Source: Brasilonema sp. CT11 (GTDB lineage Bacteria > Cyanobacteriota > Cyanobacteriia > Cyanobacteriales > Nostocaceae). From it: a DNA stretch of 45,354 nucleotides. Shown here in pieces: positions 20,718 through 32,457 of the stretch (positions within the stretch are counted from its first letter, which is position 1; every line of letters begins with the position of its first letter). Location of the stretch: the NCBI RefSeq assembly GCF_017982655.1, contig NZ_JABXYX010000059.1, positions 1 to 45,354 of the forward strand, read 5' to 3'. Under the pieces are notes generated by a model. That model did no database searches. It saw only the letters and a program-made list of their open reading frames with translations, and was not told the origin of the DNA. A program made the translations under genes and the position numbers.

Positions 20718-22313
20718 CTATGCAGTACGAAAACGCGCCAACTCCTCACCTGTCTTGGCATCATGGGCGTGAACAGTACAAACTAAACAAGAATCAAACG
20801 ATCGCGCCACATGACCCACTTCCACTGGATCGGTCGAGTCGAAAATAGGTGTCCCGACTAAAGCTTCCTCAATGGGTCCGCGTATTCCTTCTGCGTCACG
20901 CGGTCCGATATTCCAAGTACTCGGTGCCATAATTTGGTAATTCTTAATCTTACCACCCTCAATCTCCAACCAGTGACACAGGGAACCGCGCGATGCTTCT
21001 GTTGCACCCCAACCGCGCCCATCTTTTTCTTTGGGTTTGATATACCAGGTGTCATTCAGGCGGAACTCGCGCAAGCAGCGTTCTGCTTGTCTGTATAACT
21101 TGACAATTTCGTGGACTCGTGCTAACTGTCGTATATGAATACTGGCACCACCCAACTCTTTGAATGCATCTAGAATAAACCCATCGTAGTGCTGCCAAGA
21201 CTCACCATGTTTACCACCAGCCACTAACTGACGTGCGAGTGGTCCTGCTTCCAAGCGTCCTAAGTCTTTGTGACGTACTGCCGTTGACCAAGAGTATCGC
21301 CCATTGAAGTCTTTGACATTATTTTTGCTTGGTTTGGTTACGCGGTCAAAGGGGTGAATGTCTGATGTCAGTTCCTCATACCAGGAGTAAGTTGTATTTT
21401 CCCGGACAAAAGTCTGATCCATGAGAGTGTGGGTGTCGCTGAAACTGTCGTAGACTCCACTCTTCATAATCAGGGATGCATTTCGCCCTTCTATTGTTGG
21501 TTTCTGGTATTTTGCTTCATGAGGTAAATATCCCCAAGTGACATATCGACCTACACCAGCACCATATTTATCTAGACCTATATCTAAACCCATGCGCCAA
21601 TAAAAACCTAAGTCAGAGTTTGCATGGCTGGGGCTTTCGTCTAGCCATTCCATGAAGTCTTCATAAGTCTGAATTTGTTCGTAGCGTTCTAATGAACAAC
21701 CTAACCACACGGGTTCTAACCAGTTGGTGCGGAAGTATTCTAAAATTGACCACGCGCGAGTCACGTCTGTTAAGGTGGGGGCGCACATCACGCCACCAGG
21801 AACCATATAACTGCTGTGGGGCCATTGACCGCCAAATAGGGCGTAAATTTCGACAGGTTTAGCAGAAATTGTAATGCCAAGTTCGTAAGACTTGCCTGTG
21901 AAAGCGGCAAAGCGTCTGCAAGCTTCTAGATAATAAGGGCTGTATTGGTACTTTTTATTGGTTAAATCAATAGCGAATAAACCGTAAAAGTAACGAGGTA
22001 TGCTTTGGATTGTTTCGACAATTTGACCTAAGTTTCTTGCCAAAATTGCATTACGCGGGACTTCTGTTCCCCAAGCGGTGTCCAATGCCCAAGCTGCACT
22101 AGTCAGGTGAGAAGCACCACAAATACCGCATACACGAGGTGTGACAATTAATCCTGCTTGGGGGTCTTTTCCACGTAGGATGACTTCAAATCCTCGAAAG
22201 AGTTCGGCATGTGTCCAAGCGTTGACGACGTGTCCGTCTTCTATTTCGACTCGGACATCTAAATCGCCTTCTACTCTCCCGACTGGGGAGATGTCTAATG
22301 TTTGATTTCCCAT
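20718..22313 (-). CDS. hupL: HupL, uptake [NiFe]-hydrogenase large subunit
   Basis: Large catalytic subunit of the cyanobacterial (group 2a) uptake hydrogenase, which oxidises the H2 made by nitrogenase in heterocysts. Nickel ligands: RVCGICGASH (proximal pair, near residue 60) and DSCLVCTVH near the C-terminus; after the last histidine a 16-residue tail (AHDAKTGEELARFRTA) remains, the part removed by the HupW protease. I choose the ATG at 22313 (MGNQTLDISPVGRVEGDL, 531 residues), with AGGAC upstream; an ATG at 22334 would add seven residues. The gene is uninterrupted, unlike Anabaena PCC 7120 hupL, which carries an excisable element. Confidence 0.97.
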   Translation of the reverse strand: MGNQTLDISPVGRVEGDLDVRVEIEDGHVVNAWTHAELFRGFEVILRGKDPQAGLIVTPRVCGICGASHLTSAAWALDTAWGTEVPRNAILARNLGQIVETIQSIPRYFYGLFAIDLTNKKYQYSPYYLEACRRFAAFTGKSYELGITISAKPVEIYALFGGQWPHSSYMVPGGVMCAPTLTDVTRAWSILEYFRTNWLEPVWLGCSLERYEQIQTYEDFMEWLDESPSHANSDLGFYWRMGLDIGLDKYGAGVGRYVTWGYLPHEAKYQKPTIEGRNASLIMKSGVYDSFSDTHTLMDQTFVRENTTYSWYEELTSDIHPFDRVTKPSKNNVKDFNGRYSWSTAVRHKDLGRLEAGPLARQLVAGGKHGESWQHYDGFILDAFKELGGASIHIRQLARVHEIVKLYRQAERCLREFRLNDTWYIKPKEKDGRGWGATEASRGSLCHWLEIEGGKIKNYQIMAPSTWNIGPRDAEGIRGPIEEALVGTPIFDSTDPVEVGHVARSFDSCLVCTVHAHDAKTGEELARFRTA

Positions 22314-22366
22314 TTGTTTTTTGTCCTGTGTCATTTGTGCTTTGTGCTTTGCTAATGATTAATGAC

Positions 22367-22517
22367 TACTCCCTTCTCGCCAGAAGAATACTTAAACGAA
22401 CCGCAAAGACGAGCCAGCGCCGTGGGCGGGTCTCCCGACTTGAGGCGACTGGCGTCGCTAAGGACACAAAGGAAGAAAAAAAAGAAGATAAGTAATCTTA
22501 GACCACTGAAGGGAGTA
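22367..22517 (-). repeat. hupS-hupL intergenic repeat and potential hairpin
   Basis: The 215-base spacer between hupS and hupL carries a 10-base perfect outer inverted repeat (22367-22376 and 22508-22517), and inside it a GC-rich dispersed repeat (about 22405-22460) with GCCAGCGCC, GGGCGGGTCTCCCGAC and GGCGACTGGCG elements that can fold back. In other heterocystous strains the hupS-hupL spacer can also form a hairpin, proposed to stabilise or coordinate the transcript. Sequence structure is seen; function is inferred. Confidence 0.6.
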
Positions 22518-22528
22518 ATGACTAATGA

Positions 22529-23491
22529 CTAAACTGTAAAAAAGTCATCTTCTGCCCAATGAGGCATTGTGTCTTTCGCCACAATGGAGAGTAGGGCATA
22601 GTCTTTCTTGTTCACTCCTGTGGGTAAGTCTTTGGGAACTCCCATCACGGTTTGTGTCTTAAATACGGTTCCTGGTTTGAGGTCATAGAAGGGGAATTCG
22701 GGTTCGGTGCAACCTAAACAAGGCATCCCGGCGCGGGTTTTGGAGGAGACGCGGTTCCACAAGATGCGGTTGCAGGAGGAACGAGTCATTGGTCCGCGAC
22801 AACCTAAGTCGTAGAACAAGCATCCTTTACGTTGACCAAAATCGGTGGTTGATGCTTTGTAGGCAAAGTGGATGTTGCGGGTGCAGCCTGTTTGGGTATA
22901 AGTGTTGAAGAAGGTTTGTGGACGATGCAACTCGTCAAGGACAATATCGCCAATTCTATTGGTGGCGATCGCCACTAATATTTGTGTGATCCAGTCGGGA
23001 TGGGCAGGACATCCAGGAATGTTGATCACGGGTAATCCCGATTTTGTCCGGAATTCTTTTCCTAAAAAGCCCCCTTCTTTGCGTTTGAGAAATTGCAATC
23101 CAATCGAATCACTAGGATTAGGTGCCATTGCGGGAATTCCTCCCCAAGTTGCACAGTCTCCCACTGCGACTATATAGTTAGCAACTTGGGATAGGTCGTT
23201 TAACCAGTCTTTCATGGGGCGATCGGCAAAACGGTTCCATTCTCCTGTGCCATTAGGTGCGTTAATAACTGTGCCTTCAAAAACCAGGATATCCAAGGGA
23301 ATCTTGCCCAAAAGACAGTCCCACAGCATTGTCTGCAAGTTTGTACCTAATTCCAGTCCTAAAGATGGATGCCAAAGGACGTTTATGCCAAAGTCAGTAA
23401 CTAAATCACAAGCTGTGGGTTCTTCAGCGTTAAGAAATGACATGGTGTTGCCTGAACATGCACCACCTTGCAGCCATAGTAAGTTAGTCAT
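22529..23491 (-). CDS. hupS: HupS, uptake hydrogenase small (Fe-S) subunit
   Basis: Electron-transfer subunit carrying three Fe-S clusters that link the HupL active site to the membrane quinone pool or another acceptor. The 320-residue product has the proximal-cluster start WLQGGACSGNTMSF (cysteine near residue 12), the GDCATWGGIPAM stretch (about 112), NIPGCPAHPDW (about 150), and the C-terminal cluster regions GCLFYDLGCRGPMTRSSC and MPCLGCTEPEFPF. As in other cyanobacteria there is no twin-arginine signal peptide and no C-terminal membrane anchor. It is upstream of hupL on - and divergent from the hyp series. Confidence 0.97.
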   Translation of the reverse strand: MTNLLWLQGGACSGNTMSFLNAEEPTACDLVTDFGINVLWHPSLGLELGTNLQTMLWDCLLGKIPLDILVFEGTVINAPNGTGEWNRFADRPMKDWLNDLSQVANYIVAVGDCATWGGIPAMAPNPSDSIGLQFLKRKEGGFLGKEFRTKSGLPVINIPGCPAHPDWITQILVAIATNRIGDIVLDELHRPQTFFNTYTQTGCTRNIHFAYKASTTDFGQRKGCLFYDLGCRGPMTRSSCNRILWNRVSSKTRAGMPCLGCTEPEFPFYDLKPGTVFKTQTVMGVPKDLPTGVNKKDYALLSIVAKDTMPHWAEDDFFTV

Positions 23492-27272: not shown

Positions 27273-27410
27273 GCTGCGCCCTTGCACTCTACAGCAACTC
27301 TTGAGTCAAAAGACAAAATAAGTTTACGTTGTGTATTGTGTTAAGTCCGGTACACAGTTTCCAAATAGATTGTACAAAGCCTTTATCTCAAGACAATAAA
27401 TCATTCTGTA

Positions 27411-27461
27411 TTCTGAGTTCTGAGTTTTGAATTCTGAATTCTGAGTTCTGAATTCTGTCTT
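27411..27461. repeat. TTCTGAATTCTGAG short tandem repeat
   Basis: Degenerate 7- and 8-base repeats of the (A/G)TTCTGA type, about seven copies, in the 217-base gap between the NHL gene and hypF. No terminator-like structure is seen, so hypF may be transcribed from upstream. Confidence 0.7.
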
Positions 27462-27489: not shown

Positions 27490-30081
27490 ATGTCTACTGA
27501 AGAAATCATCAGGGTTCGCGGTATCGTTCAAGGAGTGGGATTCCGCCCCACTGTATATAGACTTGCAAAAGCATACGGATTGCAAGGCGAAGTTTGTAAT
27601 GACGGTCAAGGTGTCCTCATTAGGGTATCTGGCTGTGAAGAATTTATAGAAGAATTTGTTCAAAATTTACAGAAACAGTGTCCGCCATTAGCGAGAATTG
27701 ATGAAGTAACGCGCAAGCGTTATGAAGGCAAATCTACCTTTGGTGATTTTGTCATTTCTGACAGTCTCAGCAGTGCAGTGAAAACAGAAATTCCTGCGGA
27801 TGCTGCGACTTGTCCGAAATGTAAAGCGGAAATTTTTGACCCCCTCAACCGCTGGTACCGTTATCCCTTCACGAACTGTACTCATTGCGGTCCTCGCCTA
27901 AGTATCATTCGCGCCATACCTTATGATCGCGACAACACAAGTATGGCTGCTTTTGCTATGTGTGCAGAGTGTCGTCGGGAATACAACGATGTTGAAAACC
28001 GTCGCTTTCACGCCCAACCCGTAGCGTGTCAAATTTGCGGTCCTAAAGCCTGGTTAGAACGTTCAGATAATCAACCAATTACATCTTATATGTTTTCTAT
28101 GCTTGACGATGTTGATGCCGTTTGTACCTTATTACAAAAAGGCGAGATTGTTGCTATTAAAGGGTTAGGTGGATTTCATCTAGCTTGCGACGCCACTCAG
28201 GAAGCGGCTGTACAAAAACTACGCAGCCGTAAACAGCGCCATCAAAAACCTTTTGCTTTAATGGCAAAAGACATATCAGTTATAGAAGAGTACTGCACCC
28301 CGAACAGCAAAGAAAGAGAATTATTAGAAAGTCCCGCCGCGCCTGTTGTGTTGATTCAGGCAAATGCGGGAGACGATGATGAAGAAAGGGGAAGTGGAAG
28401 GATAGAATTCAAAGTTCGTCTTGAAAAGTTTGCTACGGAGGGAAACCAACGCCAGATACCTACGGAGGGAAACACTCATCAAGTACTGGCTCCTCCTGGC
28501 ACGCCAGTTCGCACAACGGGGGGAACCCCCGCAAGCGACTGGCTCAACTTTTCGCAAAGTTCAAAATTCAAAATTCAAAATCCAAAATCCAAAATTCAAA
28601 ATAAAATTGCGCCTTCAGTTGCACCAGGGCAAAACACTTTGGGTTTCATGCTACCTTACACCCCGTTACACCACCTCATTCTGAGGCGGATGAATCGCCC
28701 GATTGTTTTCACAAGTGGTAATCTTTCTGATGAACCGCAATGTATTGATAATGTCGAAGCGCGTGAGAAGTTAGGAAAAATTGCGGATTATTTTCTTCTG
28801 CACAATCGGGAGATTGTAAACCGAGTTGATGATTCAGTGGTGAGGGTTGTTGGTGAAAAAGTGCTAACAATCCGTCGTGCTAGAGGATACGCACCAACAT
28901 CTATTAATTTACCATCTGGATTTGAAAGTGTTCCTCACATTTTAGCAATGGGCAGTCAGCTAAAGAATACTTTTTGTTTATTGCGAGATGGGAAAGCAAT
29001 TCTATCTCAGCATATAGGAGATTTAGAAAGTGCAGCGACTTTCAAATCCTATCAGGATACGCTCAATCTCTACTTGAATTTATTTGAGCATCAACCCGAA
29101 GCGATCGCTGTTGATTTACACCCTGAATATCTATCAACCAAACTTGGAAAAGAACTTGCACACGCGAATCAGTACGGACACGGCACAGCCGTGCCCCTAC
29201 TTCACATCCAACATCATCATGCTCATATTGCTGCTTGCATGGCAGAAAATGATATACATATTAATTCACCACCTGTTTTAGGTATTGCATTAGATGGATT
29301 GGGTTATGGTGAAGATGGAACACTCTGGGGCGGGGAATTTCTGTTAGCAGATTATCGCCATTTTAAGAGATTAGCAACATTTAACCCAGTACCAATGATT
29401 GGCGGAACACAAGCAATGAGAGAACCTTGGCGTAATACCTATGCCCAGTTAATATCTGCCTTGAATTGGGAAGATTTAAAACAAAAATACAAAAACTTAG
29501 ATATTTTAGAATTTCTTGAACAAAAGCCGCTGAAACTTCTCAATCAGCTTGTCGAGAAAGGAATTAACGCTCCTCTAACTTCATCAGTTGGGCGTTTATT
29601 TGATGCTGTTGCTGCTGCAATTGGTATTTGCCGAGAACAATGTAGCTATGAAGGACAAGCAGCAATTGAAATGGAAGCTTTGGCTGAGACGAGTTTATTA
29701 AATAATAAAGAATATTTAAATTATGATTTTGATTTTTTTGTTTCATATAAGATTTATTATATAGATTCATATCCAATGTGGCAAGCTTTGCTGAATGACT
29801 TACAGCAGCAGACTCCTCAAGCAGTTATCGCTGCTAAATTTCATACAAGCTTGGCTCATAGTATTGTACAAATGGTTGATAACTTGCGTCACAAAAATGA
29901 CATTCATCAGGTTGTCTTAACAGGAGGAGTTTTTCAAAATTGCATTCTGTTAGAGCAAGTTACTCAAGGCTTACAAGCGTTAGGGATAAATGTACTTACT
30001 CATAGCTTAGTTCCAGCTAATGATGGTGGTTTATCACTAGGACAAGCTGTGATTGCAGCTGCTCAATTAACGAGTCAATAG
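27490..30081 (+). CDS. hypF: HypF carbamoyltransferase with a repeat-derived insertion
   Basis: HypF makes thiocarbamate on HypE from carbamoyl phosphate, the source of the cyanide ligands of the NiFe centre. Domain order: acylphosphatase (RGIVQGVGFRPTVYRLA, residues 9-25), two zinc fingers (CPKCKAEIFDPLNRWYRYPFTNCTHCGPR, about 110-138, and CAECRRE...CQICGP, about 158-184), YrdC-like domain (about 200-390), and Kae1-like C-terminal domain (HIQHHHAHIAACMAEN, about 572-587, and VLTGGVFQNCILLEQV). At 863 residues it is longer than usual because about 75 residues (roughly 292-371) inside the YrdC-like region come from repetitive DNA. All frames around remain open. Confidence 0.95.
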   Translation: MSTEEIIRVRGIVQGVGFRPTVYRLAKAYGLQGEVCNDGQGVLIRVSGCEEFIEEFVQNLQKQCPPLARIDEVTRKRYEGKSTFGDFVISDSLSSAVKTEIPADAATCPKCKAEIFDPLNRWYRYPFTNCTHCGPRLSIIRAIPYDRDNTSMAAFAMCAECRREYNDVENRRFHAQPVACQICGPKAWLERSDNQPITSYMFSMLDDVDAVCTLLQKGEIVAIKGLGGFHLACDATQEAAVQKLRSRKQRHQKPFALMAKDISVIEEYCTPNSKERELLESPAAPVVLIQANAGDDDEERGSGRIEFKVRLEKFATEGNQRQIPTEGNTHQVLAPPGTPVRTTGGTPASDWLNFSQSSKFKIQNPKSKIQNKIAPSVAPGQNTLGFMLPYTPLHHLILRRMNRPIVFTSGNLSDEPQCIDNVEAREKLGKIADYFLLHNREIVNRVDDSVVRVVGEKVLTIRRARGYAPTSINLPSGFESVPHILAMGSQLKNTFCLLRDGKAILSQHIGDLESAATFKSYQDTLNLYLNLFEHQPEAIAVDLHPEYLSTKLGKELAHANQYGHGTAVPLLHIQHHHAHIAACMAENDIHINSPPVLGIALDGLGYGEDGTLWGGEFLLADYRHFKRLATFNPVPMIGGTQAMREPWRNTYAQLISALNWEDLKQKYKNLDILEFLEQKPLKLLNQLVEKGINAPLTSSVGRLFDAVAAAIGICREQCSYEGQAAIEMEALAETSLLNNKEYLNYDFDFFVSYKIYYIDSYPMWQALLNDLQQQTPQAVIAAKFHTSLAHSIVQMVDNLRHKNDIHQVVLTGGVFQNCILLEQVTQGLQALGINVLTHSLVPANDGGLSLGQAVIAAAQLTSQ
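28396..28602 (+). repeat. Repetitive DNA inserted in frame within hypF
   Basis: The segment contains two CTACGGAGGGAAAC copies (28433-28446 and 28460-28473, period 27), a GGGGGGAACCCCC palindrome with flanking GCCAGTTCGC and GCGACTGGC elements (about 28502-28545), and a run of CAAAATTCAAAATC repeats (28556-28602). All are classes seen in intergenic DNA of these genomes and elsewhere in this window (for example 32511-32530). It encodes low-complexity protein and the reading frame stays open. Confidence 0.85.
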
Positions 30082-32117: not shown

Positions 32118-32223
32118 GGAGCGTTAGCTCCGGCCCCCTTAGGGGCTAGCGAGGGTCACTATCAGTGGTAGAGTCAAACCTGTAGACTTTAAGCAAGTGA
32201 TAAAACTCTACAAAAGCATCTCC

Positions 32224-32457
32224 ATGCAAGTCAAAGCGGACATCACACAACAAAACTCACAACCCCTCCGTGTGCTTATTGCAGGTGGTTCAATAAGTGG
32301 TTTATGTGCAGGCTTGGCGCTGCACTGTATTGGTTGTGATGTAGAAATTTTTGAACGCACCTCGTACCAAGGGGTAGCGCCTACACTTGGTGGTGTCCAA
32401 AGTCACGGTGCTGCTTTTGTTGTGCAGATGGCAGTTAGCGATGGGGAATTACCTTAA
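32224..32457 (+). pseudogene. N-terminal fragment of a flavin-dependent monooxygenase
   Basis: Only 77 residues long. After MQVKADITQQNSQPLR it shows the dinucleotide-binding beta-alpha-beta start VLIAGGSISGLCAGLALHCIGCDVEIFERT, as in PHBH/salicylate hydroxylase-type FAD monooxygenases (normally about 380-400 residues). It then stops at 32457 after QMAVSDGELP, and the rest of the enzyme is missing. It lies between the two 50-bp inverted repeats, between tautomerase and hypE, and is not a hydrogenase gene. Read as a degraded passenger gene. Confidence 0.65.

Follow-up and report, generated by a model that had tools for sequence, protein, structure and literature searches.

In-frame nest of dispersed repeats in a variable loop of the carbamoyltransferase HypF from Brasilonema sp. 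CT11

Introduction

How does repetitive DNA, of classes otherwise seen between genes, come to lie in the open reading frame of a conserved enzyme, and what becomes of the protein? The question is raised by hypF of the cyanobacterium Brasilonema sp. CT11, within a window of 45,354 nucleotides (the whole stretch of DNA analysed here, contig NZ_JABXYX010000059.1). A sequence-only reading of this window had described a long repetitive insertion in the YrdC-like region of hypF, at 28396-28602, in a frame that stays open, and had put forward either tolerance at a surface loop of the protein or a path leading from intergenic repeat to coding sequence. The composition of this segment, its counterparts in related genomes, the occurrence of its elements elsewhere and the explanations that may account for it are examined in the following.

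The HypF protein and its extra loop

The product of hypF (Table 1) is matched by the full-length profile TIGR00143 with 840 bits (cut-off 466), in two stretches, and its domains follow in the order acylphosphatase, two zf-HYPF zinc fingers, YrdC-like and Kae1-like. The phmmer alignment of the protein with solved HypFs ends at residue 290-291 and restarts at 371-372, and at this position the solved proteins have 2 residues (3vth) or 5 (E. coli HypF), such that residues 290-371 constitute an extra loop that follows the '...PVVLI' strand in the YrdC-like domain. The alignment to solved structures suggests that the loop is surface-exposed, and the segment is probably disordered; the AlphaFold model, with a mean pLDDT of 59, is too poor to show the surface position of the loop. 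The right border of the sequence-only reading coincides exactly with the end of the loop, while its left border falls 39 bp inside it.

The genes which HypF would serve are presumably hupS and hupL, named from their protein sequences, and the hyp genes of the window, named partly by reading, have open frames. Two further observations were made in this neighbourhood. Between hypD and hypE, positions 32197-32457 encode an 86-aa fragment which, by reading, resembles the start of an FAD-dependent oxidoreductase and is possibly a gene remnant. Immediately 5' of hypF, at 27410-27458, lies a degenerate TTCTGAG/TTCTGAA heptamer run, whose repeat class differs from the intragenic one.

Table 1. Features of the hypF locus, in positions of the window.
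Feature	Position	Strand	Remark
hupL	20718-22334	-	frame intact; uptake-hydrogenase gene that HypF would serve; length near constant across loci
Further copy of the 45-bp unit	22411-22455	-	spacer between hupS and hupL
hupS	22529-23491	-	frame intact; uptake-hydrogenase gene that HypF would serve; length near constant across loci
hypF	27490-30081	+	863 aa, carbamoyltransferase HypF, single open frame
Variable loop of HypF	28357-28602	+	82 residues, 290-371; splits the halves of the YrdC-like domain; anchored on conserved flanks
Loop lead-in (QANAGDDDEERGSGRI)	28357-28404	+	48 bp, common to the genus, not recognised as repeat
Left end of the TTCAAAA-type heptamer array	28405-28417	+	hairpin cuts into the array
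Left arm of the 48-bp outer hairpin	28418-28447	+	in Brasilonema sp. UFV-L1 the hairpin encloses no unit
First 45-bp palindromic unit (AACGCCAG...CTGGCTC)	28448-28492	+	nested in the hairpin
Right arm of the outer hairpin, first piece	28493-28499	+	from the loop DNA alignment
Second 45-bp palindromic unit, GGGGGGAACCCCC core	28500-28544	+	-15.1 kcal/mol
Right arm of the outer hairpin, second piece	28545-28555	+	from the loop DNA alignment
TTCAAAA/TCCAAAA heptamer array	about 28555-28602	+	reads FKIQNPKSKIQN

Nested repeats in the loop

Repeat DNA inside hypF, in frame, could be confirmed, and the loop proved to be a nest of dispersed repeats: a TTCAAAA heptamer array encloses a 48-bp hairpin, which in turn encloses two 45-bp palindromic units, the repeat-derived part of the loop beginning near 28405. 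All the elements named in the sequence-only reading were located, namely two exact copies of CTACGGAGGGAAAC (starts 28433 and 28460), the GGGGGGAACCCCC palindrome within the second unit, and the terminal heptamer array. The description as one long insertion holds insofar as the segment is made of repeats; a single event is too simple, as several nested events at a site that is variable throughout the family are represented.

With DNA parameters, the 138-nt nest folds at -29.4 kcal/mol compared with a mean of -16.8 for shuffled sequences, none of the 200 shuffles being as good. Taken by itself, the second 45-bp unit is likewise unmatched by its shuffles (0 of 200), while the first unit on its own folds weakly, with 7 of 200 shuffles as good. 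For UFV-L1, a stretch set 3 bases too far to the left of the hairpin gave -11 kcal/mol (1 of 200 shuffles as good), a value to which no claim is attached. The hairpin sits in a heptamer array which is itself repetitive, and a 7-bp target-site duplication would be masked there.

Stages in relatives

In the loop DNA alignment, the individual layers of the nest are found separately in related genomes. An unbroken array alone is present in HT-58-2, Tolypothrix campylonemoides and B. angustatum; the array with the hairpin occurs in Brasilonema sp. UFV-L1, together with another short insert further along the array; the array, the hairpin and one 45-bp unit are combined in G004, S. tolypothrichoides and B. 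bromeliae; and two 45-bp units within the hairpin are seen in the window. From end to end, enclosed units included, the hairpin is thus 48 bp long in UFV-L1, 93 bp long in the three relatives and 138 bp long in the window, each step being a multiple of three, and it is in frame in all five genomes that share it. Since the outer hairpin is common to five genomes of the genus, the repeats in hypF are not merely recent, and the earlier suggestion that the gene was only lately affected does not hold for the nest as a whole.

The simplest reading of these stages, which is not a proof, would be a succession from the array to the 48-bp hairpin within it, then to a 45-bp unit within the hairpin and finally to the second 45-bp unit. 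B. angustatum is the sister of the window on the HypF tree (support 94) and yet has no hairpin, so that either loss of the hairpin or its repeated gain must be assumed. Furthermore, a three-level copy similar to the nest of the window lies at another place in G001 (L047), which makes gene conversion from another copy as likely a source of the second unit as a new insertion. RU_4_4 (G005), from the same clade, has a different loop filling that includes a related palindrome.

The HypF loop across cyanobacteria

The survey of the loop was extended to 80 further loci from named genomes. These are the highest-ranking 80 among 191 tblastn matches, a choice that may favour intact genes. Including the window, the loop is in frame and free of stops in 81 of 81 genes, one of the sequences holding an N, and its length ranges from 5 to 98 aa; an earlier parse with slightly wider borders had covered 26 of 30 loci, with loops of 9-101 aa. 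The tolerance at the protein level proposed in the sequence-only reading is thereby borne out, the surface position being suggested by the alignment discussed above. The segment of the window is not spread through the order, as the loops of the 81 genes show, and HypFs with short loops are without it. Length and sequence of the loop vary widely even among close relatives.

The fillings comprise TTCAAAA arrays (peptide FKIQNSK), GGGGAAT arrays (GEWGMGN), ACTCCTA arrays (LTPNSS), HTPHTP, a GACGCGATTAATCGCGTC palindrome (RDAINRVS) and others. A named repeat was assigned to 34 of the 81 loops and a local duplication to 5, while 17 are short (≤30 nt) and the remaining 25, classed as 'other', fit no repeat class. 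The Okeania and Hydrocoleum loops (L103, L104, L105, L107 and L114) appear to be tandem duplications of hypF's own flanking residues rather than dispersed repeats. Mapped on the HypF tree, a quick one with 27 of 78 inner branches open, our own pattern classes require at least 28 changes, a figure that is inflated, since the sisters L063 and L066, with alike fillings, were classed apart.

The variation is a property of HypF more than of its neighbours. The standard deviation of length amounts to 21.1 aa for HypF (n = 77) compared with 0-10.6 aa among the other eight alignable neighbour proteins, namely HypD 3.0 (n = 60), HypE 3.4 (67), HupL 2.9 (32), HupS 0 (36), HypC 2.4 (32), a 405-aa ORF 4.3 (40), a TPR protein 7.9 (13) and HypB 10.6 (65), the last of which varies as well, with inserts of up to 32 aa. 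NifE, represented by one row only, was left out of this comparison.

Dispersed copies and the origin of the fillings

The search of the own 8.8-Mb genome for the 207-bp segment, as the sequence-only reading had proposed, returned at least 42 matches including the segment itself, the best other match being 93% identical over 96 bp; 40 of 389 candidates were scored, so the count is a lower bound. The pattern ACGCCAG-N{16,44}-CTGGCTC, which describes the ends of the 45-bp unit, has 125 occurrences in the own genome, where the reversed control has 0; in G004 a search by these ends located the unit 171 times (controls 2). The motif of the hairpin arm, with at most 2 mismatches, has 19 copies in the own genome (reversed control 0) and is present in 8 of the 10 genomes searched. 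Matches of the segment, motif counts and folding all exceed chance, in line with the view that the open 863-aa frame contains repetitive DNA.

Forty-one distinct units were compared, a biased sample, as many loci had been retrieved by similarity to the element. Measured from ACGCCAG to CTGGCTC in a search that allowed 40-50 nt, 29 of the 41 are 44 nt long and 12 are 45 nt; lengths of 38, 39, 46, 47 and 55 nt are also among the matches listed. The idea of unit lengths always divisible by three was consequently rejected. The left flanks end in ACCA or TCCA in 20 of the 41, and the right flanks start with CTCC in 18. A test for complementarity between the flanks of these units gave a mean duplex energy of -12.34 compared with -11.39 for re-paired flanks, the best of 200 re-pairings reaching -12.80; it is uninformative, because the flanks resemble each other. 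The unit often sits mid-way in other hairpins. As regards a possible mobilising enzyme, no unit was found within 1.5 kb of the five Y1_Tnp genes of the own genome (0 of 5 loci of 3.3 kb).

The question of where the fillings come from was approached with the 51 loops of at least 60 nt. Across 74 loci, the flanks contain 15-mers of these loops 1413 times, and only 187 of the occurrences fall inside ORFs of at least 100 aa, which make up 74% of the flank DNA; control 15-mers taken from hypF itself occur 8 times. The contents of the loops thus recur in neighbouring DNA mostly outside ORFs, which supports the proposal that intergenic repeats become coding. The coverage by pooled-flank 15-mers amounts to 0.351 for the loops and 0.071 for hypF control windows, with 23 of 51 loops above every control and 6 of 51 at zero, and the peak of self-similarity at lag 7 to 0.427 compared with 0.258 in the control; the loops being related by descent, these tests overstate independence, and p-values such as 3e-9 in the pooled-flank test are too strong. 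Pooled-flank 13-mers discriminate poorly (6 of 51 loops above every control). Own-flank 12-mers are only partly supportive: the score is higher than in any control for 14 of 48 loops and zero for 18 of 48 (means 0.170 and 0.054). For the window, the 43-kb flank shows no clear enrichment of the loop's 12-mers, with 0.21 compared with 0.112 for hypF controls, 12% of which score at least as high.

Reading frame, selection and alternative explanations

The explanation that we regard as highly probable is that the HypF loop is a permissive site, repeatedly colonised by intergenic repeats, at which selection keeps only those events that preserve the frame and bring in no stop. The heptamer arrays would grow by slippage, and short hairpin elements would insert into the loop and also into one another; purifying selection on HypF would remove events that shift the frame or bear a stop, and the survivors, confined to places where the fold of HypF allows them and to the right frame, would be read through as an extra translated segment, which would need no function of its own. 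The succession outlined above for the window may be understood in these terms, with the second 45-bp unit added either by insertion or by conversion.

The reading frame is consistent with this picture. None of the 51 loops of at least 60 nt contains a stop in the frame that is read, while 41 and 37 of them do in the other two forward frames; 741 windows of the hypF core behave alike, with stops in 1% in the read frame and in 83% and 93% in the others. The element AATTCAAAA, which is open on one strand only, occurs 33:0 in that orientation in the loops and 51:49 in the flanks, the 33 copies falling in 8 loops, 7 of them from one clade. In comparisons of the window with five relatives, dN/dS was 0.16-0.33 for the core and 0.20-0.65 for the loop. 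The former values indicate that the flanking HypF protein is under purifying selection, and the pattern of the loop is that expected of a segment which would be translated, tolerated and weakly constrained.

The loop might instead be a functional linker, selected for length or disorder, for which repeats are merely a handy source of disordered peptide. It can be argued along these lines that the loop is open in every gene parsed and that its dN/dS stays below 1 in all five comparisons. A required linker is nevertheless hard to reconcile with the 17 of 81 loops of 30 nt or less, with the 2-5 residues of the solved HypFs, and with the wide differences in loop length and sequence between close relatives, and we consider this explanation unlikely. 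Even less probable, to a degree that makes it highly improbable, is that hypF is decaying and that the repeats are early debris. Repeat insertion usually inactivates genes, and the second 45-bp unit looks recent, its peptide occurring in no other HypF loop among those compared, the 81-gene set included; the low dN/dS of the core, the open frames of hupS, hupL and the hyp genes, and a hairpin that is in frame in each of its five genomes nonetheless speak against decay. Removal of the segment after transcription or translation, by a small intron, bypassing or protein splicing, which would leave a protein of ordinary size, may find some encouragement in the nested hairpins into which the strand folds (DNA parameters), but is hardly credible in view of the 81 of 81 frame-neutral, stop-free loops with stop-rich other frames, a pattern expected only if the segment is translated, and of the finding of no Rfam match at the gathering score.

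Units in other proteins

In-frame copies of the repeats also occur outside HypF. Nine genomes were searched for the peptide frame of the element, and 12 ORFs among the matches listed were inspected. One of them was rejected, the 354-aa open frame at L182 (G004:C1:560000-563500), which is spurious and arises from a long tandem array of palindromic units. Pfam was applied to ten proteins, comprising nine of the other 11 ORFs and a 669-aa protein of G000. The element occupies residues 258-299 of the Mg-chelatase H subunit (ChlH) of G005, inside the Mg-chelatase domain (187-1284), and residues 661-697 of the PEP carboxylase (PEPC) of G004, inside its domain (35-1068). The unit is also present in a beta-ketoacyl synthase of G000 and, by sequence, of G004; in a polyketide synthase of G000, between ketosynthase and acyltransferase; in a histidine kinase of G011, between kinase and receiver; in a DALR protein of G000; and, by reading only, in an NRPS of G002. 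Three more unit-bearing proteins had no Pfam match above the family cut-off. The 669-aa protein, with orthologues in G004 and G002, reached 26.8 bits for AAA_35, below the cut-off of 27.

In the PEP carboxylase of G004 a 45-bp unit is centred, in frame, in another hairpin, and the own genome has this hairpin without the unit, at the same junction. Matches of PEPC were obtained from 59 of 59 genomes and of ChlH from 51 of 59, the loops being read in 30 loci each. The PEPC loops (L183-L191, L209-L229) are in frame and stop-free in 30 of 30, and those of ChlH (L192-L200, L230-L250) in all 29 that could be parsed, the 30th locus lacking the anchor pair; in both proteins of Nostocales the loops are variable and many are filled with repeats. 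Separately, the ChlH query is matched in a split manner around residues 846-867 in G028, G053, G055 and G057, an indication of another variable loop in this protein.

A wider reading, which we hold tentatively and at somewhat less than even confidence, is that housekeeping enzymes of Nostocales, at least HypF, PEP carboxylase and Mg-chelatase H, possess hot loops which steadily turn intergenic repeats into protein. The 45-bp unit seems to favour the centres of other hairpins, so that intragenic hairpins might serve as landing sites, and each round of nested growth may add about 15 residues in frame.

Relation to known systems and significance

Among known systems, the Rickettsia palindromic elements (RPEs) of Ogata and colleagues come closest. 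As far as the accessible parts of the sources go, these are short palindromic repeats of ~105-150 bp, found in Rickettsia between genes and also in frame in unrelated conserved proteins, and an RPE-bearing guanylate kinase was reported to be active (PMC2229807, PMC10969869). Like the RPEs thus described, the palindromic repeat of the window lies in frame in unrelated protein genes as well as between genes. Unlike them, it is cyanobacterial, with units of 45-48 bp and a nest of 138 bp (93 or 48 bp in relatives); its units are nested in each other and in heptamer arrays, and several unrelated repeat classes recur as fillings of one and the same loop. In view of the different sizes, the element may be said to work like an RPE, and it is not filed as one.

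The elements themselves have counterparts in Nostoc PCC 7120. There, csR2, csR3.1 and csR3.2 are reported from intergenic regions of the hyp operon, csR3.1 (ggagggtttccctcc) and csR3.2 (aacttttcaaga), with 19 and 21 genome copies, in the spacer that immediately precedes hypF (PMC2408588). Of these sequences, csR3.1 and csR3.2 correspond to the core and the arm of the outer hairpin of the window, intergenic in Nostoc and coding here, and csR2 to the palindrome present in two other HypF loops and in ChlH loops. An exact csR3.2 starts at 28419 on the minus strand, and the motif is present in 4 of 81 loops; csR3.1, with any A/T at its centre, is found in 2 of 81 (L055 and L054) and is absent from the window, the core being interrupted there by the nested unit. 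The small dispersed repeats of Nostoc treated by Elhai et al. in 2008 are said to be short and mobile-looking, some of them nested.

Cyanobacterial REP/GTAG elements and MITEs are likewise small dispersed palindromes; in the sections of the literature at hand some REPs are intragenic, MITE-derived ORFs are known in several bacteria, and some Anabaena MITEs carry ORFs (PMC3733652, PMC10969869). Those sections do not report them as repeated fillings of one enzyme loop, and at the five Y1 loci here a transposase link was not found. A parallel at the level of RNA is offered by the P6b stem-loop of the Nostoc trnL intron, according to the available part of its description a peripheral loop with interchangeable 7-nt repeat classes in Nostocales (PMC4476775); on that account both are filled by interchangeable repeats, P6b being an RNA loop and the HypF loop a predicted translated loop of protein. 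The accessible portions of the open-access literature, a coverage outside which the original Ogata and Elhai papers fall, contain no report of such repeats recurrently filling a loop of HypF, PEPC or ChlH.

Rickettsia, an intracellular bacterium, is the best-known source of selfish repeats that lie in frame within conserved proteins. In cyanobacteria the successive stages can be followed in one enzyme, from the array alone to the hairpin and the nest in close relatives, and two more central enzymes show the process as well. With these natural variants it becomes testable how non-coding repeats become segments of proteins, and which loops tolerate them.
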